A DNA stretch of 44,774 bases, taken from assembly GCA_030725715.1 (NCBI GenBank), contig JANRFG010000007.1, positions 1 to 44,774 on the forward strand, given 5' to 3'. The position numbers and the translations under genes were made by a program. The number at the start of each line of letters is the position of its first letter. Positions within the stretch are counted from its first letter, which is position 1. Below the pieces are notes generated by a model. That model saw only the letters and a list, made by a program, of their open reading frames with translations, searched no databases and was not told where the DNA came from. Shown here piece after piece: positions 33,877 through 44,719 of this stretch. Source of the stretch: Opitutales bacterium. Lineage in GTDB: Bacteria > Verrucomicrobiota > Verrucomicrobiia > Opitutales > UBA953.

Positions 33877-33921
33877 CCTAAGGGGTTGCAGGGAGAAGCG
33901 GCATAGGGACAATCCCCTAGG
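33877..33921 (+). repeat. Inverted repeat covering the start codon of the first giant gene
   Basis: CCTAAGGGGTTG (33877-33888) can pair with CAATCCCCTAGG (33910-33921) over 12 positions with one mismatch and one G-T pair, leaving a 21-nt loop. The last G of the 3' arm is the first base of the GTG start at 33921. It could terminate the OYE transcript or sequester the start. There is no U-run. Confidence 0.5.
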
Positions 33922-36900
33922 TGTCGTCCCCCCGCGCCACCCTCTCCGCCTCGCGGTCCACCGCGCGCAGCGGCTTCAGCCTCGTGCTGACGCTGACGGT
34001 GATGGCCATGCTCACGCTGACGGTGATCACCGCCGCCGCCTTCATCACCGTCGAATCCCGGCTCGCGACGCAGCATCACCTCGCCACGCGGGCGCGGCTC
34101 AACGGGTTGGCCGCCGTCCGGCTCGCGCTGGCCCACCTGCAGCAGGAAGCCGGGCCCGACCAACGGGCCACGGCGCGGGCCGACTTCACCGTCACGCATA
34201 CGCAACCCGGGCGCAACTGGACGGGCGTGCGCAACGCGATGTGGACGGGCGTCTGGCGCAACGACGCCCCGCTGCAGCCGCCGGCCTGGCTGATCAGCGG
34301 CCGGCACGACCGGACGGCCGGCGCCCAGTCGGCGTCGCTCGCTTCTTCCTTCGATCCGCGCCAGCCGGTGAGCGCGACCAATCCGAAGCCGGATTATCCC
34401 GAAGCGGTCTGGCTGCCCTGGCAGACCGACTATGCTCCGCCCCCTTCGACGCTCGTCACGCTCGTCGGCGCCGCCACGGCGGAAGGCCCGGTGGACGCCG
34501 TGCCCGCGATCCTCAAGGCCGCGCCGGAGACGCCCGGCCGCCCGGACGGACGCGTCTCCCTGCCGAAGATCGCCCTGCCGGACCAAGCCCGCGGAGCTTA
34601 CGCCTACTGGATCGGAGACGAAGGCGTGAAAGTCCGGCTCGACGCCCGCGATCCGCGCGCAACCGGCGAGGACAAAGCCCGCCGGCTGGCCGTCAAAGGG
34701 GCCGGCGGCGTCGCGCTGGGCCTGCTGCCGGGCTTCACGGACCTTGACGGCGCCGCGCTCGACCCGCGGATCAGGCGCTTGACGGATTTCGCCGTGGCCC
34801 CGCCGAGCGGCGTCGCCCTCCCGACGGAAGCAGCCGCCCGCGGCCTCTGGACCGACGCCACCGTCGCGTCGGAAGGCGTGCTGGCCGACGCGCTCTGGGG
34901 CGGGCTGCAGGTCGATCTTTCGACCTTGTTCGAGAAACCCTTGGACGCTTTCCGGCTCACGGAATACGGCGGCGGCCCGGGCGCCTCGACCTACGTCTAC
35001 TCGCCCTGGGATCAGAGGACCGGCAGAGGCCCGACGGACGCCTCGGCCGTCTTCGCCGACGCCCGCGCGCTGTTGCGCTGCCGCGAGCCGGGGATGGCGA
35101 ACGACCGGCTCGTCGCGCCGATCTACAGCCTGCCGGACCGGGCGCGACCGAGCGCGCGGCTGCGCGGCCCCCTCTGGGAGGCCCTGCGCGCCCACCATCT
35201 GCTTTACCGCGAACTCAGCGACCGGCCGGGCCGGGCGCCGTCGCTCGACGCCCGCGCGCACTTCCCGAACACCGTGGCGCTGGCGGGACTCATCAACGCC
35301 AGCACCGCCCATTACGGCCACCTGTACAACCGGATGGACACCCCGGAGGACGTCTGGGCGACCGACACCCTGCGCGGCACGCCGGCGCCGCGGCCGCTCA
35401 AGCCGGGCGTCTTCCCTTACGTCGCGCGGCAGCAGCTCGTGCTGGGCCTGCAGGACGCCGGCGGCGAACTGCGGCTGGTGCTCACGCCGATCACGGTGCT
35501 GCACAATCCCTACAACGTCGCGCTGCGGCTGAACCCCGTGAACAGCGGCGACGCGGCGATGCGCCTTTCCTTCCGGCATTGGAACCGCTGGAAGCTCGAC
35601 TTCACGGCGAGCTCCGAGACCTCGACGACCAGCTGGTGGCACGACCTCCTGACCATGGCCTCCCGCACGGGCGGCAACCCGAACGCGGCGGAGAGCATGC
35701 GCGTGTACATCCCGCCGCTGACGCTCGAACCCGGCGAGCTGCGCGTCTTCTCGCTGCCCGGCCCGCAGCCGATGCGCTTCGACCGGCTCGGCACCACGGT
35801 GCCCCGCTTCGATTTCCGCGGAGGCTTCTACGTGCCCTGCCTCACCCCGGGCGGCGGCCCGCTCAACCGCAACGGGACCGACACGCTCAGCGTGCGCTTC
35901 CGGAGCGAGGGTCCGTTCTATGTCCGCCACATGATCTCCTGCTGGCCGGGCGACCGGCTCGACGAGACCGGCAACGCCGGCGACGCCAGCCTCTACAACG
36001 CGGCCAGCGAGGTCACCGAGCTCCTCTCCAACAACCTCGGCGCCGGCCGCAGCGGCTCCGCGCCCGCGAAGCTCATCCCGCCCGGCGCCGTGCTGCCGTC
36101 CCCCGGGCAGCCGCCCGCCGTGCTGGCCGTGCTGGATTACGCGGTGCGCTGGCCCGGCGACGCCCTGCCCTTCCCGTTGTTCACCCGCTCGAACCCGACC
36201 GCCGCGATGACGCGCCCCGAGGCCACCGGCTGGTCGCCCGGCGGGATGCCGGCCGGGCACGCGACGACCTCGAGCAGTTTCCGCATGACCATCCGCGCGG
36301 CGAACGACTGGTCCGAAGTGCTCGAGACCGACGGCCCGGGCGGCAAGGCGTTCGGCGGGCTCAGCGCCTCCTCGTCGGGCCAGCACGCCGCGGTGTTCAC
36401 CTCCGTGCCGCTCGCCGCCCCGGTCTCGCTCGCCGAGTACGCCCACGCGAACATCCACCTGCGCGACCAGGATCCGCTCCTCGTCGCGGGCAACAGCTTC
36501 GCCTCGCCGTTCATCCCGCGCCATCGCGTCTGGAACTACCGCTCCGGCCAGAACAACACCGACCTCGACCGCTCCTACCTCATCAACGCGGCGCTCTTCG
36601 ACCGGCACTTCCTCTCCGGGGCCGCGCCGACGTGGGCCGACGGACGCGAGGTGACGCCGCTCACGCAGGTCCTCGACGACTTCGCGGCCGGCCGGACGCG
36701 GTTGGGCAACGTCCGCCTGCGGCCGCTGCCGGCGACGGACACGGCCGCGCGCCTCCGCTCGCACCGCACCTTCGCGACGGCGGTCATGTCGGAAGGCGCC
36801 TTCAACGTGAACAGCGTCTCGCCCAACGCCTGGGCCGCGCTGCTCGGCGCGACCAAGGGACTGCCCTCGGGGCTGGCGGCCGGCGACCGCGACGCGCGCT

Positions 36901-37739
36901 ACCCGCGCGCCAACCGGCTCGACGCCGTGCCCGCCGCGGTCCGCGCGGCGCCCTCAGAAGAGGCGGCCTGGAACGGCCTGCGCTCGCTCGATGACCGGCA
37001 GCTGCGGCTGCTCGCGCAGGGCATCGTGGACGAGATCCGTTGGCGGACGATCTACCCGCACCGCAACGAGAACTACGTGTCGCCGAACCACGACCAACCG
37101 CGTTCGTACCGGGGGGCGACCGCGACGACCCGGGTGAACGTGCCCGCCCCGTTCCAAGGGCTCGCGCAGTTCGTGAACCGCTACCTCTGCAACACCTTCG
37201 CCTTCATCGGCCACGGCGGGTGCCTGCAGAACGGCATCCATCGCGCCCATGCGGCCGGCGCCGCGCTCGCGCCAGCCGCCGGGCCGGGCACTCCGCTGTC
37301 GGCGGAAGGCGCGCAGGCGCCGAACCGAGGCCCGGGCCAGACGCCTTGGACCGACCCCACCTGCCGCGTGAACCTGCGCGGCGGCGAGGCGTCGGGGCCG
37401 GGCATCGGGACCGCCACGATGGCGGAAGGCGCGCCGGGCGCGCTCCTGCAGTCCGACGTCCTGGAGGCGATCGGACCGGCGCTCACGGCGCGCTCCGACA
37501 CGTTCGTCATCCGCGTCTACGCGGAGGCCGCCTCGGCGGACGGCGTCGCCGGTGCGTGGTTCGAAGCCGTCGCGCAACGCCGCCCCGCCTTCATGGACGC
37601 GCGTCAGGCCGCCGAGACGCCCGTCACCCATCCGACGGATTCCCGGCTGAAGAACCCGGCGCTCCGGCCGGTGAACCGCATGCTCGGCCGCCGCTTCCAT
37701 CTGACGGACTTCCGCGGCCTCCGCGCCGATCAGCTATGA
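33921..37739 (+). CDS. Verru_Chthon cassette protein A-like giant protein, copy 1
   Basis: 1272 residues, function unknown. The start is fixed: GTG at 33921 directly follows an in-frame TAG, and no other start precedes the prepilin motif. The N-terminus SARSGFSLVLTLTVMAML-type segment (about residues 13-40) is a type III/IV-pilin-like signal (cut expected at G|F) with a long hydrophobic helix but no Glu5. LATRARLNGLAAVRLALAH and LQQEAGPDQR follow. Further landmarks are AYAYWIGDEGVKVRLD (about 228), EGAFNVNSVSPNAWAALLG (about 955) and TARSDTFVIRVYAEA (about 1190). The absence of Glu5 and the NVNS-type block recall GspK/PilX tip pseudopilins. It overlaps its partner gene by 4 bp. It is very GC-rich, more so than copy 2 at 39895. 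Confidence 0.85.
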   Translation: MSSPRATLSASRSTARSGFSLVLTLTVMAMLTLTVITAAAFITVESRLATQHHLATRARLNGLAAVRLALAHLQQEAGPDQRATARADFTVTHTQPGRNWTGVRNAMWTGVWRNDAPLQPPAWLISGRHDRTAGAQSASLASSFDPRQPVSATNPKPDYPEAVWLPWQTDYAPPPSTLVTLVGAATAEGPVDAVPAILKAAPETPGRPDGRVSLPKIALPDQARGAYAYWIGDEGVKVRLDARDPRATGEDKARRLAVKGAGGVALGLLPGFTDLDGAALDPRIRRLTDFAVAPPSGVALPTEAAARGLWTDATVASEGVLADALWGGLQVDLSTLFEKPLDAFRLTEYGGGPGASTYVYSPWDQRTGRGPTDASAVFADARALLRCREPGMANDRLVAPIYSLPDRARPSARLRGPLWEALRAHHLLYRELSDRPGRAPSLDARAHFPNTVALAGLINASTAHYGHLYNRMDTPEDVWATDTLRGTPAPRPLKPGVFPYVARQQLVLGLQDAGGELRLVLTPITVLHNPYNVALRLNPVNSGDAAMRLSFRHWNRWKLDFTASSETSTTSWWHDLLTMASRTGGNPNAAESMRVYIPPLTLEPGELRVFSLPGPQPMRFDRLGTTVPRFDFRGGFYVPCLTPGGGPLNRNGTDTLSVRFRSEGPFYVRHMISCWPGDRLDETGNAGDASLYNAASEVTELLSNNLGAGRSGSAPAKLIPPGAVLPSPGQPPAVLAVLDYAVRWPGDALPFPLFTRSNPTAAMTRPEATGWSPGGMPAGHATTSSSFRMTIRAANDWSEVLETDGPGGKAFGGLSASSSGQHAAVFTSVPLAAPVSLAEYAHANIHLRDQDPLLVAGNSFASPFIPRHRVWNYRSGQNNTDLDRSYLINAALFDRHFLSGAAPTWADGREVTPLTQVLDDFAAGRTRLGNVRLRPLPATDTAARLRSHRTFATAVMSEGAFNVNSVSPNAWAALLGATKGLPSGLAAGDRDARYPRANRLDAVPAAVRAAPSEEAAWNGLRSLDDRQLRLLAQGIVDEIRWRTIYPHRNENYVSPNHDQPRSYRGATATTRVNVPAPFQGLAQFVNRYLCNTFAFIGHGGCLQNGIHRAHAAGAALAPAAGPGTPLSAEGAQAPNRGPGQTPWTDPTCRVNLRGGEASGPGIGTATMAEGAPGALLQSDVLEAIGPALTARSDTFVIRVYAEAASADGVAGAWFEAVAQRRPAFMDARQAAETPVTHPTDSRLKNPALRPVNRMLGRRFHLTDFRGLRADQL

Positions 37740-38650
37740 GACTCGGCGGACTGCTCACCCTCGCCGGCGCCCTGGCCCTCGGACAAACCAAGGCGCCGCC
37801 GGAGATCCGTTGCGACTTCCGCGCGCTGGCGTTGTCCGCCCCGATCACCGACGCCGCTTACGTCACGGGCCGACGGCCGACGCCCTTGCTGATCCCCAGC
37901 GACTTCTTCTCGGCCGCGCAGGCCTATCGCGGCCCCGCCGAGCTCACGCTCGGTCGCCTCGAAACCGCTTTGGTCAAGGCACCCGTGGTCGAAGGCGAAG
38001 ACGCCGCGGCCCGACTGGCGGACGCGGCCTACGCGGCGCTCGCGCAGGAAGCCGCCGACCTCGTCGCCGGCGCCGCCGAAGGGCCGGCCGGAGAAGGGCG
38101 AAGACGCCGTGCCGAAGAGATCCTCGGGCGGGCCGCCGAGCAGGCCGCGCGGGCGGCGCGACTACGGCAGGCCGCGCAGACGCGCCGGGCGACGGCGGAC
38201 GCTCCTTTGCCGAAGACGGGCGAGGCCGACCAGCCTCCCGGACCGCCGCGCTTCACGCCCCGCGGCAGCGTGCAGCTCCGCGACGGCGGCGCCTACCTGC
38301 TGCTCGTCGCCGAAGACCCCGCCGGCTGGCGCGTGACCGCGCTCGACGACACGCCGGGCCTGCACCCCTTCGGCACGCTGCGCTTCATCAACCTCACCGG
38401 GCGTCCGCTCGTGCTCCGACAGGCCGGACGCGACGTCGCCCTGCCCGACCGTCGTCCGGTCATCCATCGTCCGTCGGTCGACGAGCACGGCTACGCGGGC
38501 CTCGAACTGCGACCGACCGACGCCGACAGCCGGCCCTTGCGGACCATGCGGGTGTATCCCGAGAAGGACGCCCGCAGCACCTACCTGCTGGTCGCGGAGC
38601 CCGCGGGCGGACTCACCGTCAAGGCCGCGCACGAACGACGCGCTCCTTGA
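37736..38650 (+). CDS. Secreted partner protein of giant copy 1, unknown function
   Basis: 304 residues. The ATG at 37736 shares ATGA with the stop of the giant gene; a longer upstream frame exists but only this start gives a signal peptide (MRLGGLLTLAGALALGQTK). Region 1 (about 25-80) ends in LLIPSDFFSAAQAYRGPAELTLG. An Ala/Arg-rich, probably helical insert of about 90 residues follows. Region 3 is beta-rich: GSVQLRDGGAYLLLVAEDP, then LRFINLTGRPLVLRQAG and STYLLVAEPAGGLTVKA. Regions 1 and 3 align with the protein at 43922, so the two are paralogues and each follows a giant protein. No known domain is recognised. It is likely a periplasmic or surface partner of the pseudopilin-like protein. 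Confidence 0.8.
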   Translation: MRLGGLLTLAGALALGQTKAPPEIRCDFRALALSAPITDAAYVTGRRPTPLLIPSDFFSAAQAYRGPAELTLGRLETALVKAPVVEGEDAAARLADAAYAALAQEAADLVAGAAEGPAGEGRRRRAEEILGRAAEQAARAARLRQAAQTRRATADAPLPKTGEADQPPGPPRFTPRGSVQLRDGGAYLLLVAEDPAGWRVTALDDTPGLHPFGTLRFINLTGRPLVLRQAGRDVALPDRRPVIHRPSVDEHGYAGLELRPTDADSRPLRTMRVYPEKDARSTYLLVAEPAGGLTVKAAHERRAP

Positions 38651-38657
38651 GCCCGCC

Positions 38658-39404
38658 TCACGGCTTCTCGAAGATCAGCAGGTGCTGCCACGGCAGCCCC
38701 GGCTTGTTCGTCACGAACCGGAAGCCGGCTGCCTCCAACTCCTTGCGGGCCTGCGCCTCGGTCATCTTGTGGTGCGGCTTGATCGGCACGTCCTCGTCCT
38801 CGGCCCGGAACTCGAGCAGATAGATCCGCCCCTTGGGCTTGAGCGCGGAACGCAGCGAAGCGAGCATCTCCGCCGGGTGGTCGAACTCGTGATAAGCGTC
38901 GACCATCAGGGCCGCGTCGATCGAGGCCGGCGGCAATCTCACGTCATCGACCGCGCCGAGATGAGGCTGCACGTTCGTCACGCCGAGCTTGGCGGCTTCG
39001 GTCTTCAGGAACGCGAGCATCTCCGGCTGGATGTCGACCGCGACGACCTTCCCTTTTGGCAGCCGGCGGGCGATGCGGAACGAGTAGTAACCCGAGCCGG
39101 CGCCGATGTCGGCCAGGACCGTGTCCGGCGCGAGCTCGAGCAAGGCGATCGCCTTCGAAGGCGCCTCCTCTTTCTCACGGTCGGTGCGCTCGAGCCAACC
39201 GATGCCCGGATGCCCCATGACCTGGGAGATCTCGCGGCCCATGAAAGTCTTGCCGATGCCGTCGCGGGAGGGCGGGCAGCTGCCGTAAGCCGGCGGCGCC
39301 GGCGGAGTCGGCGAGGAGACCGCCTCGGGGCGGGTCCAGAGGAACAGGCCGATCGCACCGCCGACGAGGAGGCACGAGGAAAGCAGGGGGTGGCGCTTCA
39401 GCAT
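38658..39404 (-). CDS. Membrane-anchored or exported SAM-dependent methyltransferase
   Basis: A 248-residue protein with an N-terminal hydrophobic segment (SSCLLVGGAIGLFLW) and a Pro/Ala linker. A lineage-type motif (FMGREISQVMGHPGIGWLER) is followed by a complete class I methyltransferase fold: motif I VLADIGAGSGYYSFRIARR, the acidic AVDIQPEM, IDAALMVDAYHEF and LKPKGRIYLLEF. If the N-terminus is a signal or anchor, the enzyme would face outward, where SAM is not normally available. A cytoplasm-facing anchored orientation is possible. Its 3' end is only 8 bp from the convergent partner gene. The substrate is unknown. Confidence 0.85.
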   Translation of the reverse strand: MLKRHPLLSSCLLVGGAIGLFLWTRPEAVSSPTPPAPPAYGSCPPSRDGIGKTFMGREISQVMGHPGIGWLERTDREKEEAPSKAIALLELAPDTVLADIGAGSGYYSFRIARRLPKGKVVAVDIQPEMLAFLKTEAAKLGVTNVQPHLGAVDDVRLPPASIDAALMVDAYHEFDHPAEMLASLRSALKPKGRIYLLEFRAEDEDVPIKPHHKMTEAQARKELEAAGFRFVTNKPGLPWQHLLIFEKP

Positions 39405-39445
39405 GGATACAAACTGAGCTCGTCCGCACGCTTCGCAAGCGTGAC

Positions 39446-39475
39446 AAAAAAACGGCCGGACCCAAGGTCCGGCCG
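39446..39475 (-). terminator. Rho-independent terminator of the small exported protein
   Basis: On the minus strand a 10-bp stem (CGGCCGGACC/GGTCCGGCCG, 39453-39475) with a 3-nt loop is followed by seven U (39452-39446). It separates the tiny gene at 39500-39739 from the methyltransferase, so the two are separate transcripts or attenuated. Confidence 0.92.
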
Positions 39476-39499
39476 GATCAGCCTAGATCGGCTCGGCGC

Positions 39500-39739
39500 T
39501 CACTTACGGGCCGGCGCAGACTTTTTGGACGCAGGCTTCTTCGACGCCGGCTTCTTGGCCGGCTTCTTGGCCGGCTTCTTGGCCGGCTTCTTGGAGCCGC
39601 CGCTCTTACCGCAACCGGGCTTGCCCACGGTGGGAGGGACCGTGGGAGGGGTACCGTTATTGCTGCCGACCAGGGCAGAAGCGGAGGCGCAGGCGAAAAC
39701 AAGGGCGACAGCAAACAGCGGGGTTTTCATGGTTTGCAT
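39500..39739 (-). CDS. Small exported Lys/Pro/Ala-repeat protein
   Basis: 79 residues. A signal peptide (MKTPLFAVALVFACASASA) is followed by a short Thr/Pro segment, GKPGCGKSGGSKK, and a basic tail of KKPA repeats resembling histone H1-like C-termini. This is one of the few genes here with a good Shine-Dalgarno: GGAGGT, 11 nt before the ATG at 39739. A second ATG three codons in (39730) fits the signal peptide equally. TATTAAAAT upstream could be its -10. A DNA-, polysaccharide- or wall-binding role for the polycationic tail is a guess. It is real by signal, SD and terminator, but no family is recognised. Confidence 0.8.
   Translation of the reverse strand: MQTMKTPLFAVALVFACASASALVGSNNGTPPTVPPTVGKPGCGKSGGSKKPAKKPAKKPAKKPASKKPASKKSAPARK
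39546..39593. repeat. Four perfect 12-bp tandem repeats inside the small gene
   Basis: GCCGGCTTCTTG occurs four times in tandem. It encodes the KKPA units of the tail on the minus strand. Copy number is in-frame and could vary by slippage. Confidence 0.95.
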
Positions 39740-39830
39740 AGGTTGACCGACCTCCGAGCCGAAGAAAAGCGTATTTTAATAGCAATTATCTGGGGTGAGA
39801 TTGGCGGGATTGGCGGGCCTACCATCAAGG

Positions 39831-39891
39831 GTAAGCACTTGCCTAGGAACTTATCCTGAGTATTAATAACCATGTTGCTTACTGTAAGCAC
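39831..39891 (+). promoter_or_regulatory. Promoter with flanking repeats before the second giant gene
   Basis: TTGCCT (39839-39844), 16 bp, TATTAA (39861-39866) is a good sigma70-like promoter in an AT-rich gap. GTAAGCAC occurs on both sides (39831-39838 and 39884-39891). TGCTTAC-T-GTAAGCA (39876-39890) is a perfect inverted repeat, at or just after the predicted transcription start and ending 4 bp before the ATG at 39895. It may be an operator or a 5' stem-loop. No Shine-Dalgarno is present. Confidence 0.55.
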
Positions 39892-39894
39892 GCT

Positions 39895-42800
39895 ATGGAT
39901 CACCGCAAAAACCAACGCCAAGGTTTCAGCCTGATTCTTTCGCTTACCATGATGGCGGGCATCGTCCTGCTGGTCATCAGCCTGTCCGCCTTCATCACGA
40001 TCGAGTCCCGCGCGGCGATGAACCAGCAGCTCGCCACACGCGCGCGGCTGAACGCGCTCGTCTCGATGCGGCTCGCCTTGGCGCACCTGCAGCAGGAAGC
40101 GGGGCCGGACCGGCGCTCGACCGCGCGCGCGGACATCACCCAGCCCAACGTGAGCGCCGACAGCCTCCGGAATCCGATGTGGACCGGCGTGTGGCGCACC
40201 GACCAGCCGGACCTTCCGCCCGCGTGGCTTGTCTCCGGTCGCGGCGACCAGCCCGCCGGCACGCAGATGATCTCCCTCTTCCAGGCCGGCGCCACGCCTG
40301 ACTATCACGAGGGTTACTGGGCGCCTTGGCAGGCCCTCTCCGCCGCCGCGGCCGCGAACAGCGTCCCGCTCGTCGGCACCGGCAGCGCCTTGGCGGCCGC
40401 GGACGGCAAGGCCAGCGGACTGGTATCGCTTCCCAAGGTCACGCTCCCGGACGATGACGTGGCGGGCACCTACGCTTACTGGATCGGCGACGAAGGCCTC
40501 AAGGCGCGCATCAACCTCGCCGACGGCCGCGCGAAGACCTTCGGCGACGTCGACCAGCTGGCGGCGCTCCGCAGCGGGCTGACGCCACGCTACGACGCCC
40601 TGCCCGGCCTGGGCTCCCTCTCTTCTCCCGACCAGCTGCGGGCCGTCGACAGCGTGCGGCAGCTCGCCCTGCTGAGCGGCTTCCAAGCCGGCACGGACGC
40701 CAACAACGTCAGACGGCTCTTCCACGACGTGACCGTCGTCTCGGCCGGCGTGCTCGCCGACTCCGCGCAAGGCGGGCTCAAGCGCGACCTCTCGCGCGCC
40801 TTCGAGCTGACCGACGAGGAATTCAACGCCACCGAGTTCGGGGCCGGCGCCACCGGAGCGGCCGCCACGCATGTCGGCGGCGGCGTCGCCGCGGTCACCA
40901 TGCCGGTGCTGAAGGAGTCCGGCAGCAACAACCTGCGGGCCGCGCCGGTCTTCAACCGCAGCATCACCGGCGGAGGCAATCTCCGCGGCCCGACCTGGTG
41001 GGCCCTGCGCGACTACCATCGCCTTTACCGCCAGCTCGGGTGGAGCGCCGGCAGCGGCGGCGCGGCGGCGACGACCATCCCCACGCTCAACGCCCGCACC
41101 CTCTGGCCGAACGTCGCCGCCGCCCACCCCAGCGGACCGCCGGCCGACAGCGGCCTGCCGAACAACAGCCTGCGCAACCGCATCTACGGCTACTCCGACC
41201 TCTACGACGGCGACCTGCCCACGCCGATCGACCCGAACATCTCGGATCTGCTCAACGGCGACGCCGGCCGCCTCATCACCCGCCCCCTGAACGTCGCCGC
41301 GACGCCCTATGTGCAGCGCGTCTCACTGGCCTTCAGCGTGAACAAGATGCACTGGTTCGGACCATGGATCACCTACCGGGTGGGCCGGCAGGTCTACCGC
41401 TACCGCGAGGAGACCATCGACATCCGCCTCAACATCACGCCGATCGTCGTCGTCCATAACCCCTACAACGTGCGCATGGCCTGGAAACCCGGGGCCGGCG
41501 CCACGGGTTCGCCGAACAAGCGTCCGTTCGCCGCGGCGATCTCATTGTCGGACATGAACGATTGGAAGTTCCGCTTCAAGCAGTACCAAGCCGACACGAT
41601 GAGCAATCCGGCGGTGATGGAGACCAACCTCACCGACTTCTTCAAACGACAGAGCAACGAAGTCCACGACGACGACACCCTGCGCATCTATCTCTCCAAG
41701 GACGGTACGCCCGACATGGTCCTCGAACCGGGAGAGTTCCGGGTCTTCTCCTGCGAACCGACGTTCGGCGAATGGACCAAGTCCATCGTGCTCGACAACA
41801 CCTATGACACCCGCGGAGGATACCGCGACAACGTCTGGGACTGGAATTTCGGGGAGGAAGCGCTCGACAGCCTGGACATCGACGCCCCGATCAGCTTCGA
41901 AATCATCCCGGGCGGACGGCTCCGGATGCGCCAGGCGCTCGCCTGCTGGCCGGGCGACCAGCTCGTCCTGGACGAGAAGACCAACAAGAGCGGCAATGAG
42001 GTCGGCAACGACAAGAACGACTTCTTCTACCGGAGCAGCGAGGCCTCCGAAGTCGTCTTCAGCGACATCAATCAGGGCAAGTATCCGAGCCCGGGCGAAA
42101 AATTCTTCCCGAGCTGGCGGCACGTGCAGGACAAGTTCGAGAAACCCAACGACGAGTGGGACGGACGCACCCCCTACCCCACGCCGACCTCGCCGCCGCT
42201 CGAACCCGACCTGGTGACCGTCATCGACATCACCGCCAAGCCGGCGGACGCCGCGGACGCCCCCTTCCCGCTGCTCACCCACTCCAACCCCTTCGCCGCC
42301 ACGGCGCGGGCGAGCGGCGGCGGGCGGAGCGGCGCGGGCGACGACCGAGGCTTCCTCGGCGCTTCGCCCAGCTACCAGTTCACCGTCCGCAGCGGCGACT
42401 GGGTGAACATACTCGCGAACCATGAAAGCGGCCGGCTCGCCTACGGCGGCAGCTCCCTTTCCACCAGCGGAGCGAAGCAGGCGGTCCTGCTGGAGGTGCC
42501 GCTCGTCGCCCCCACTTCGCTCGCGCAGTACGCCCACGCCAACTTCGGCGTCCGCGACCAGCAGCCGCTGCTCAGCATCGGCAACAGCTTCGCGAGCCCC
42601 TTCGTCGACGCGCAGAAGGTCTTCCAGCAGAACGGTCCGAACTGGACCGAAGCCGACCAGACGTACCTCCTGAACGCGGCGCTCTGGGACGGCTACTTCC
42701 TCTCCGGTCTCGGTCCGCGCATGCGCACCGGCGGAAGCGGCTCCGTGACTCCGGCCGATCCTGTCCCCGCCACGCCCGCCAACGCGACGGGCGGCGGCCG

Positions 42801-43932
42801 CCCCACCGCCGCCGACCCCAACGTGGCCACGGACATCCCGGCGGTCATCGAAGCCTTCATCAACGGCGACGCCCCGCTGGCCAACCCCCGGTTCTCCCAC
42901 GAACTCAGCAGCCTGGGCGCCGAGGCCAAGACCCTGGCCCTGAACGATCATCGCCGCGTCGCCTCGGTCCTGCTCAACGAAGGCGCCTTCAACGTCAACT
43001 CCACCTCGGTCGAAGCCTGGACGGCCTTCCTCGGAGCGGCGAAGGGACAGGCCTTGGCGGGCGTCGGCGCGAACAGCCCGTCCCCCACGAACAACGCCCG
43101 GTTCCCCCGCAGCCTGGCGAAGGTCGCCTCGACGGCGGCGAGCGGCGACGCCATCGACGAAAGCAACTGGCAGGGCTTCGCCAACCTGTCCGACGCCCAG
43201 CTCGAAGCGCTCGCCAAAGCCATCGTCGCGGAGAACAAGGCCCGCTTCGCGCTGCAAAGCCGCACCGAACGGGAACTCTCCCGTGCCCCGGGCTCGCGTC
43301 TCTTCGGCGGCCTCACCCAACCCGTGACCCCCTATCTCGGCCTGGCCGAGTTCATCAACCGGTTCCTCACGCCGGAGACCTGGGCGAACCGTTGCGGCGC
43401 CCTGCAGGCCGCCATCCTGCGCGCCGACCAACAGCATGCGGCCGGCATCAGCGACCGACTGTTCGCCGGTCTCCCGGACCTGAGGGTCACCCCGGCGAGC
43501 CTCCAGACGCCGACCGCCGGGATCTTCCCTCACCCGGAAAACCTCGACCTGAGAGCGCAAGGCGGCGGCACCAGCCGCGCCCACGCGGCCCTCGGCGCCC
43601 CCGGCAACCTCCTGCAGTCCGACCTCCTCCAGACCCTCGGGCCGGCGCTGGCCACGCGCTCGGACACGTTCACCCTGCGCTGCTTCGGTGAAGCTTCGGC
43701 CCTCTCCGGCGAGAACGGCATGGCCTGGATGGAGGTCGTGGTCCAGCGCGTGCCGGACTTCGTCGACCCGACCAACCCGGCGGAGACCAGCAACAGCGCC
43801 CCGAAGCCGCTCGCCCCCGGACCCGCCACCGCGGACGCCTCCGTCAGTCCGGAACTGACCCCGATCAACCAGCTGCTCGGACGTCGCTTCAAGGTCCTCT
43901 CCATGCGCTGGATCCAAGGCAATGAGATCTGA
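39895..43932 (+). CDS. Verru_Chthon cassette protein A-like giant protein, copy 2
   Basis: 1345 residues, paralogue of the protein at 33921. The N-terminus MDHRKNQRQGFSLILSLTMM has a prepilin-type G|F junction with a hydrophobic helix lacking Glu5. LATRARLNALVSMRLALAH and LQQEAGPDRR follow. Shared landmarks: MWTGVWRTDQPDLPPAWLVS, TYAYWIGDEGLKARIN (about 191), EGAFNVNSTSVEAWTAFLG (about 1029), ATRSDTFTLRCFGEA (about 1255), and a C-terminal LLGRRFKVLSMRW. It probably crosses the inner membrane once with the bulk outside, in a type II secretion or type IV pilus-like assembly. The B, C and D pilin-like genes normally found in Verru_Chthon cassettes are not adjacent. It overlaps the next gene by 11 bp. 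Confidence 0.87.
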   Translation: MDHRKNQRQGFSLILSLTMMAGIVLLVISLSAFITIESRAAMNQQLATRARLNALVSMRLALAHLQQEAGPDRRSTARADITQPNVSADSLRNPMWTGVWRTDQPDLPPAWLVSGRGDQPAGTQMISLFQAGATPDYHEGYWAPWQALSAAAAANSVPLVGTGSALAAADGKASGLVSLPKVTLPDDDVAGTYAYWIGDEGLKARINLADGRAKTFGDVDQLAALRSGLTPRYDALPGLGSLSSPDQLRAVDSVRQLALLSGFQAGTDANNVRRLFHDVTVVSAGVLADSAQGGLKRDLSRAFELTDEEFNATEFGAGATGAAATHVGGGVAAVTMPVLKESGSNNLRAAPVFNRSITGGGNLRGPTWWALRDYHRLYRQLGWSAGSGGAAATTIPTLNARTLWPNVAAAHPSGPPADSGLPNNSLRNRIYGYSDLYDGDLPTPIDPNISDLLNGDAGRLITRPLNVAATPYVQRVSLAFSVNKMHWFGPWITYRVGRQVYRYREETIDIRLNITPIVVVHNPYNVRMAWKPGAGATGSPNKRPFAAAISLSDMNDWKFRFKQYQADTMSNPAVMETNLTDFFKRQSNEVHDDDTLRIYLSKDGTPDMVLEPGEFRVFSCEPTFGEWTKSIVLDNTYDTRGGYRDNVWDWNFGEEALDSLDIDAPISFEIIPGGRLRMRQALACWPGDQLVLDEKTNKSGNEVGNDKNDFFYRSSEASEVVFSDINQGKYPSPGEKFFPSWRHVQDKFEKPNDEWDGRTPYPTPTSPPLEPDLVTVIDITAKPADAADAPFPLLTHSNPFAATARASGGGRSGAGDDRGFLGASPSYQFTVRSGDWVNILANHESGRLAYGGSSLSTSGAKQAVLLEVPLVAPTSLAQYAHANFGVRDQQPLLSIGNSFASPFVDAQKVFQQNGPNWTEADQTYLLNAALWDGYFLSGLGPRMRTGGSGSVTPADPVPATPANATGGGRPTAADPNVATDIPAVIEAFINGDAPLANPRFSHELSSLGAEAKTLALNDHRRVASVLLNEGAFNVNSTSVEAWTAFLGAAKGQALAGVGANSPSPTNNARFPRSLAKVASTAASGDAIDESNWQGFANLSDAQLEALAKAIVAENKARFALQSRTERELSRAPGSRLFGGLTQPVTPYLGLAEFINRFLTPETWANRCGALQAAILRADQQHAAGISDRLFAGLPDLRVTPASLQTPTAGIFPHPENLDLRAQGGGTSRAHAALGAPGNLLQSDLLQTLGPALATRSDTFTLRCFGEASALSGENGMAWMEVVVQRVPDFVDPTNPAETSNSAPKPLAPGPATADASVSPELTPINQLLGRRFKVLSMRWIQGNEI

Positions 43933-44719
43933 GTTCCGCCGGGCGGTCATCGGGCTGCTCCTGATGTTTTCCGCCGGAGCCCAGGCGCAGTCCGATGGCT
44001 ACGTCGAGGCCCGCATCCGTTTCATCTCGATGACGCGGCCGCTGGTCGGGGTCGGAGTGGTCAACAACCGGAAAGCCCACGGTCTTGTCATCCCGACGGA
44101 CATGTTCGCGGAGGAAATCGCCTACCGGGGGCCCGCCCGGCTCGAACTGGTCCAGATGTCGGCCGCCCGCAGTGAAACCGCGGCCGGCCCGAAGCCCGAG
44201 GAACCGGCGGCGAAGAATCCTTCCCCGCGACAGGGCGTCAAGGCCAAGCAGCAGACGCTCACCTTCACGGTCACCGGGGACCCGCCGCTGGCTTGGATCG
44301 ACCTTCCGCAGAAGCAGGGACTCCTCCATCTGATCATCCTCGTCACGCCCGGCCAGGGCAACGGGATGGTCATGCTGAGCGACAAGCCCGGTTCCTTCCC
44401 GCCGGGCAGCAACCGCTACCTCAACCTCTGCCCCTTCCCGCTGACCGTCCGGGCGCCGTCCGGCGACCATGTCGTCCCCGCGGGCGGCAGCCAGATCCTC
44501 CGCCCCGGCGCCCTCGACAAGACCTACTACGACCTCCAGCTGCTTTCCCGCGAGGCCAAGGTGCTGTTCTCTTCCCGGACCTATCACCTCGAGTCGGCGC
44601 GCAAGCTTTACGTGCTCACCCAGGTCGGGACGAGCGGACGCGTGCAATTGAAGTCGATCGTCGACCGTCCCGTGGCGCCTCCCAGGACGTTCGAAAAAGG
44701 CGTGCCGGACAAGAAGTAG
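43922..44719 (+). CDS. Secreted partner protein of giant copy 2, unknown function
   Basis: 265 residues. A signal peptide (MRSEFRRAVIGLLLMFSAGAQAQ) is followed by EARIRFISMTRPLVGVGV and GLVIPTDMFAEEIAYRGPARLELVQ. A short charged Pro/Lys linker comes next, and then a beta-rich half containing SNRYLNLCPFPLTVRAPSG and TYHLESARKLYVLTQ. The I-P-(T/S)-D-x-F...AYRGPA block and the (R/N)-F/Y-(I/L)-N-L...PL-V-R strand are shared with the protein at 37736, which carries a longer Ala-rich insert. The ATG lies 11 bp inside the giant gene, so translation is coupled. No known domain recognised; a partner or chaperone of the giant protein is inferred from strict pairing. Confidence 0.8.
   Translation: MRSEFRRAVIGLLLMFSAGAQAQSDGYVEARIRFISMTRPLVGVGVVNNRKAHGLVIPTDMFAEEIAYRGPARLELVQMSAARSETAAGPKPEEPAAKNPSPRQGVKAKQQTLTFTVTGDPPLAWIDLPQKQGLLHLIILVTPGQGNGMVMLSDKPGSFPPGSNRYLNLCPFPLTVRAPSGDHVVPAGGSQILRPGALDKTYYDLQLLSREAKVLFSSRTYHLESARKLYVLTQVGTSGRVQLKSIVDRPVAPPRTFEKGVPDKK

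Follow-up and report, generated by a model that had tools for sequence, protein, structure and literature searches.

A recurring pair of a giant pilin-like protein and a secreted partner suggests an undescribed filament tip module in Verrucomicrobiota

Two modules at the locus

The window analysed here is an entire contig of 44,774 bases, ending just past the last of four plus-strand genes that form two modules, each consisting of a gene for a giant pilin-like protein (A1, A2) and a gene for a secreted partner (B1, B2). A1 (33921..37739) has a GTG start and encodes 1272 aa, opening with a class III prepilin signal (ARSG/FSLVL, the slash marking the cleavage site) with Leu at +5. Its prepilin N-terminal part (33921..34904, residues 1-328) is largely common to insertion-less homologues of about 410-420 aa, and is followed by an inserted module of 631 aa that these short homologues lack (34905..36797, residues 329-959) and by a conserved C-terminal part (36798..37736) carrying the motifs FNVNS, RSDTF.IR and GRRF. 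The partner B1 (37736..38650, 304 aa), which has a signal peptide recognised by eye, overlaps A1 by 4 bp (ATGA). The second giant, A2 (39895..43932, 1345 aa), has the class III signal QRQG/FSLIL, again with Leu at +5, an inserted module of 736 aa (40777..42984, residues 295-1030) and a conserved C-terminal part (42985..43929), and its last 11 bp overlap the partner B2 (43922..44719, 265 aa), whose signal peptide was also recognised by eye. The modules are not adjacent in the window, where a minus-strand ORF (38658-39404), methyltransferase-like by eye, separates B1 from A2. In several relatives of the same genus, the open frame of the next giant starts less than about 120 bp past the stop of the first partner.

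The original prediction had placed the four genes and both overlaps correctly and had taken giants and partners as two sets of paralogues, which the alignments bear out: A1 and A2 align over their full length (495/1411 identities, 567 bits), and B1 and B2 share 26% identity (E 7e-15). The overlaps recur among the window and 40 further loci of the genus. In 25 of 26 modules of the A2 type, all but L057, the partner ATG falls within the end of the A2 frame to give an 11-bp overlap, and the 19 A1-type partners overlap their giant by 4 bp (11 cases) or 1 bp (7 cases) or start 2 bp past its stop (1 case). Partner starts were taken as the codon nearest the stop of the giant, so that closeness is partly by construction, but the exact repetition is not, and the recurrence of exact overlaps exceeds chance.

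Inheritance as a unit

Contig 15 of the genome from which the window derives (1.93 Mb, 95% complete) encodes a third giant, longer at 1946 aa and more distantly related. Downstream of it, on the minus strand, lie two signal-peptide proteins (locus L013, 7260-8087 and 6541-7251), which as queries gave weak matches of 17-29 bits to partner ORFs at other loci of the genus; their match to the partner profile is by construction, both being in its alignment.

Within the genus, giants and partners keep to their own type. All 18 modules with an A1-type giant have a B1-type partner, and all 24 with an A2-type giant have a B2-type one; a third type, in which the partner comes first and which best matches class as A2/B2, is consistent in 10 of 10. 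Across 105 modules, pairwise distances between giant C-termini correlate with those between partners at r = 0.83, the maximum over 2000 permutations being 0.08. Tight linkage alone would yield such a value too, and what the correlation shows is thus that the pair was duplicated and passed on as one unit, and not that its members bind. These counts agree with the original proposal of a joint duplication in which the overlap was retained.

The giant proteins

The N-terminus of the giants is a class III prepilin signal in which Gly is followed by Phe, Met or Ser. Glu at +5 is absent in all 86 giants with a readable prepilin start, a count that leaves out one giant cut at its N-terminus (L054) and five that failed the motif search.

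The label Verru_Chthon A (TIGR02600 in NCBIfam), which the original prediction had attached to these proteins, could not be kept. The giants resemble that family in their prepilin N-terminus, their size and their phylum, and TIGR02600 is matched in 20 of 38 giants (best E 1.2e-6), in the N-terminal region only in those inspected. A1, however, reaches 14.2 bits where the cut-off is 332.3, the match being confined to residues 18-80, A2 is not matched by this model, no singly scanned giant attains the cut-off, and no protein of the own genome passes it; it is passed in only 7 of 374 genomes. At five loci with genuine members, the giant profile scored 13-34 bits in four and did not match the last one; none of the five yielded a partner, a laxer search giving nothing above 7 bits. 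By these comparisons, the giant family is separate from Verru_Chthon A, and it is highly improbable that the giants are protein A of a Verru_Chthon cassette that has lost its B, C and D genes. Our literature searches turned up no paper containing the name Verru_Chthon.

The closer comparison is with GspK. Of 38 giants, 23 match the NCBIfam GspK model (NF037980, cut-off 130 bits; best E 3.7e-7), and seven giants scanned singly gave at most 24.4 bits, all N-terminal; A1 scores 11.1 bits against this model and A2 has no match. The N-terminal 70 columns of the giants align with a profile of 18 GspK proteins of the order at an hhalign probability of 90.3 (E 1.5e-6). Full homology to GspK was considered because the motifs FNVNS and RSDTF look GspK-like by eye, but was rejected, as the C-terminal profile of the giants reaches a probability of only 0.8 against GspK, and no T2SSK Pfam domain was found in the giants. 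The giant may thus work like a GspK rather than be one, homology beyond the N-terminal helix being unsupported. A confident model of A1 covering residues 49-1248 (1200 residues; pLDDT 81.8, pTM 0.87) had no PDB match in Foldseek (best E 0.12).

The partner proteins

The partner had been described as belonging to no known family, and it still does: searches of Pfam and NCBIfam gave no family over any cut-off, and no match was found among PDB sequences. Scattered weak matches include one of B1 in NCBIfam (E 0.0032, 16 of 375 bits) and one to Pfam DEC-1_N in 2 of 55 partners (E 1.8e-4). The model of B2 (pLDDT 88.3, pTM 0.80) is all beta, with tandem beta-sandwich domains. In Foldseek, the best PDB match of the partner model is the extracellular domain of PepT1/PepT2 (E 1.8e-6; TMq 0.49 for PepT1), and the C-terminal domain of AlgF reaches a TMt of 0.70 but an E of only 0.048. 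These resemblances are of the fold only, a tandem beta-sandwich or Ig-like arrangement, with no sequence similarity found to either protein and with functions that are unrelated as far as known. An usher-type chaperone of the FimC/PapD kind was tried as an identity for the partner and rejected, no chaperone family occurring among the Pfam matches of the 55 partners and Caf1M ranking 45th (E 0.21).

Pairing across the phylum

A single-sequence search with B2 found the partner in 34 of 37 genomes of the same genus and in 0 of 20 genomes from other families of the order. With a profile of 55 sequences, the partner appeared in 50 of 387 genomes of the phylum, representing 27 of 197 genera inside and outside the own class. 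Giants were present in 91 of the 374 genomes sampled, and several copies per genome are common.

We took 40 places from the partner profile, in 39 genomes and mostly the best place per genome. At 38 of these partner-chosen loci, a giant lies directly upstream on the same strand (in pieces at L150); the other two are a locus at a contig end (L146) and an orphan (L141). These distant loci were chosen through the partner, and therefore the reverse test, starting from the giant, matters. A scan with the giant alignment, testing giants of at least 900 aa, covered 60 loci, mostly from MAGs of Opitutae, Opitutia or Verrucomicrobia, and found a partner for 65 of 67 testable giants, five further giants cut by contig ends being left out. 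The partner was downstream in 61 cases and upstream in 4, one of which (L206) lies beyond the distance limit of the automated count (61 downstream and 3 upstream); none was found for the giants of L164 and L181. Since 28 of the 60 loci repeat DNA already taken through the partner, the remaining 32 are the ones new to that search, and here a partner accompanies 23 of the 25 testable giants, 19 downstream and 4 upstream. In the loci covered, the partner is thus tied to a gene for a giant, as the original prediction expected: its homologues do not lie mostly away from giants, nor do they match an unrelated family with confidence.

The inserted module and prepilin neighbours

A further set of 20 loci, chosen by the C-terminus of the giant in other families, comprised 13 long giants, 6 short forms and 1 broken gene (L302). 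The six short homologues, of about 410-420 aa and all from one family (f14), match both ends of the giants in hhalign (N-terminal part, 245 columns, probability 99.9; C-terminal part, 71 columns, probability 99.8), leaving residues 329-959 of A1 and 295-1030 of A2 without a counterpart. Against the GspK profile, their N-terminus reaches a probability of 67.8; as a hint, two of the six show a second, unlocated GspK stretch in NCBIfam (best E 1.9e-8). The partner is present with 11 of the 13 long giants, L304 and L309 being long and without one, and with none of the 6 short forms, which as members of one family do not count as six independent events. This distribution points to the insertion as the putative binding site of the partner, and makes the insertion-less, partner-less short homologues a natural control.

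The same facts can be read in another way, in which the partner would act in the periplasm as a chaperone or folding aid of the insertion and would not itself be displayed, the pair being a surface protein with its private chaperone. The overlap of the genes, the predicted all-beta tandem beta-sandwich fold of the partner and the tracking of its presence with the insertion are all consistent with such a role, but the best structural match is the Ig-like domain of PepT1/PepT2, with Caf1M far down the ranking, and display would account equally well for partners that duplicated and diverged while remaining matched to their giants. We regard the chaperone as unlikely.

The genes upstream of the giants bear on a second question, namely whether the giant enters a filament. 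The short forms follow 2-4 prepilins with Glu at +5 (Glu5 prepilins) in 6 of 6 loci, and at least one such prepilin stands upstream of long giants at 7 of the 13 C-terminus-chosen loci and at L252, L148 and L149. All prepilin-like ORFs found upstream of the giants at these loci carry Glu at +5, except for one doubtful match in L314. In some relatives, the giant is accordingly placed last after Glu5 prepilins, the slot of K in H-I-J-K clusters, a placement that rests on a minority of relatives. Most of the distant modules stand alone, without other prepilins, and a motif scan of the 44.8-kb window, whose contig ends just past B2, turned up no prepilin-like ORF besides A1 and A2. These solitary modules, together with the lack of GspK sequence homology past the N-terminal helix, would suit a giant that is a membrane-anchored envelope protein with a pilin-like signal, acting with its partner as an adhesin or binding protein at the surface or in the periplasm and never entering a filament. 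The conserved class III signal with its uniformly non-Glu residue at +5, as well as the giants placed after Glu5 prepilins, speak against an envelope protein of this kind, which we hold to be quite improbable.

A candidate tip module

Contig 6 of the own genome carries a T2SS operon with the prepilins G, H, I and J, GspK, L and M; F, E and D are encoded close by on the opposite strand. The ATPase, secretin and GspK were assigned by profile, and the other letters by order and motifs. The ordinary GspK of this genome has 413 aa and, at 66 bits, is also below the cut-off of its family. Further pilus-type ATPases are found on contig 18. The own T2SS and pilus ATPases could assemble the giant, and since the genome has an ordinary GspK, the giants would be extra K-like subunits.

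As described in PMC5207764, the tip-forming GspK is recognised by its large size, by a hydrophobic residue in place +5 and by a gene at the 3' end of the minor-pilin cluster. It is from the absence of Glu5, the 3' position after Glu5 prepilins in some relatives and the large size that we read the giants as tip subunits, and we judge it slightly better than an even bet that each giant is a K-type tip subunit of a type IV filament which displays its insertion with the partner bound. The giant would be an inner-membrane-anchored prepilin, cleaved at the Gly-Phe site, and the cleaved protein would then become the first, K-type subunit at the tip of a type IV filament, either a T2SS pseudopilus or a pilus, carrying at that tip its inserted module of about 630-740 residues. 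In the periplasm, the partner, probably made in a fixed ratio to the giant from the overlapping genes, would bind the inserted module and either stabilise or cap it; the partner may also be displayed together with that module. Duplicated modules would provide the cell with alternative tips. HIJK sets are reported to be interchangeable and modular minor pilins to present their modules at the tip (PMC9934059). Counting against the tip reading are the missing GspK match of the C-terminal part, the lack of a PDB match for the giant model, the solitary modules, the long giants without a partner and the ordinary GspK that the genome already has.

The giants share with GspK/XcpX the class III signal without Glu5, a size larger than that of other pilins, the profile match of the N-terminal helix and, in some relatives, the place after the other prepilins of the cluster. 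Unlike the aligned GspK proteins, of 340-440 aa, the long forms of the giants span about 830-1950 aa, their C-terminal part is not significantly similar, and they are extended by an inserted module and come with a secreted partner of their own. A large non-pilin module grafted on a pilin at the tip, together with an interacting, stabilising subunit, is also described for the modular minor pilins PilB and PilC of Streptococcus sanguinis and for tip complexes of PilY1 with minor pilins (PMC9934059, PMC7541494). PilC, however, keeps Glu5 and has a lectin module of known fold, whereas the model of the giant has no PDB match, and the partner differs from modular minor pilins in having an ordinary signal peptide, as judged by eye, and no prepilin signal.

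Taken together, the recurrence of the pair suggests that pili or secretion filaments can carry a tip module not described before. From the original prediction, the duplication of the pair and the unnamed partner stand; the Verru_Chthon A identity does not, and the surface or secretion apparatus envisaged there is too large, as the pair looks like one exchangeable component in a genome with its own T2SS, GspK and pilus ATPases. Among the papers listed for pseudopilins, prepilins and GspK in Verrucomicrobia, Chthoniobacter, Planctomycetes and Akkermansia, judged by titles and the beginnings of abstracts, none describes the pair. If the tip reading is true, a pair left unnamed by our Pfam and NCBIfam searches would be a common type IV filament component in an environmentally important phylum, the idea of the modular minor pilin would take in a family whose dedicated partner is not a pilin, and the role of oversized pilin-like genes in Verrucomicrobiota would have a testable answer.

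Inversions and neighbouring genes in relatives

In five genomes from one genus of another family (f23), a full giant stands head-to-head with a copy without the prepilin part, which in 4 of the 5 has an open frame starting within 25 residues of GGLKKDL, approximately the start of the insertion. The inverted repeats at these loci are 1.6-3.1 kb long with 97-100% identity. Between two of the genomes (G075 and G272), the flanks are collinear, whereas the 1.2 kb at the centre, which contain the prepilin part, lie in opposite orientations. The arrangement looks like an inversion by which the same prepilin can be connected to different cassettes. In this genus, a homologue of the partner was not supported, the signal-peptide protein downstream of the giants at L251 reaching an hhalign probability of 2.1 against the partner. 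DNA inversion as phase variation is known from other loci in Akkermansia (PMC11892184, PMC13343947), neither paper containing the word 'pilin'. Tentatively, and as a possibility rather than an expectation, Verrucomicrobiota may have a large, so far unrecognised repertoire of exchangeable giant tips, each combining a GspK-type prepilin with an inserted display module and its own secreted cap, which in some relatives would be switchable through DNA inversions that link one prepilin N-terminus to alternative cassettes of insert and C-terminal part. For one Opitutales genome, PMC13274419 reports 67 homologues of a pulG-like pseudopilin and the over-expression of one pseudopilin on alginate.

A link between the modules and secreted carbohydrate enzymes was tried and set aside. 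Of the genes close to distant modules and on their strand, 10 of 22 were read as proteins of this kind, GH10, GH31, CBM, lectin-like and subtilase proteins among them, but genes at least 1.5 kb away in the same loci qualify no less often (7 of 13), so that enrichment beside the module was not shown.

Variant arrangements of the giant and its partner

At loci L315-L319, from five genomes of one genus (G087, G167, G075, G272 and G078), a complete giant, the oversized prepilin-like protein of the module, lies opposite a head-to-head copy without the prepilin N-terminus. Long inverted repeats are present at these loci, where the arrangement lies at about 4.9-12.8 kb in each, and between G075 and G272 the flanks are collinear while the centre is inverted. 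The gene is probably invertible in these genomes.

Three giants with a DNA identity of 87-88% occur at locus L251 (G283), two of them followed by a signal-peptide protein. These two proteins are 36% identical, and a relationship to the partner, the secreted protein whose gene overlaps the giant's 3' end, was sought for them and could not be demonstrated. Giant homologues of about 410-420 aa without the insertion close prepilin clusters at L306, L308 and L310-L313, and the partner is absent beside them at these six loci examined.

In the source genome, a third module (L013:6541-13929 on contig G000:C15, minus strand) comprises a 1946-aa giant, then two partner-like secreted proteins; an ExbB/ExbD-like gene pair, named by eye, adjoins it on the opposite strand. 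A single giant followed by two consecutive partner-like ORFs is also seen at L136, L137, L151 and L152.

In two genomes of family f41, a minus-strand GH10 gene (L130:5494-8007 and L135:5534-8014) shares its first few bases or so with the partner gene's end, and is a possible third coupled gene there.

Within the window, a methyltransferase-like ORF (38658-39404, minus strand; assigned by eye) separates the two modules, which are instead adjacent in several same-genus relatives.
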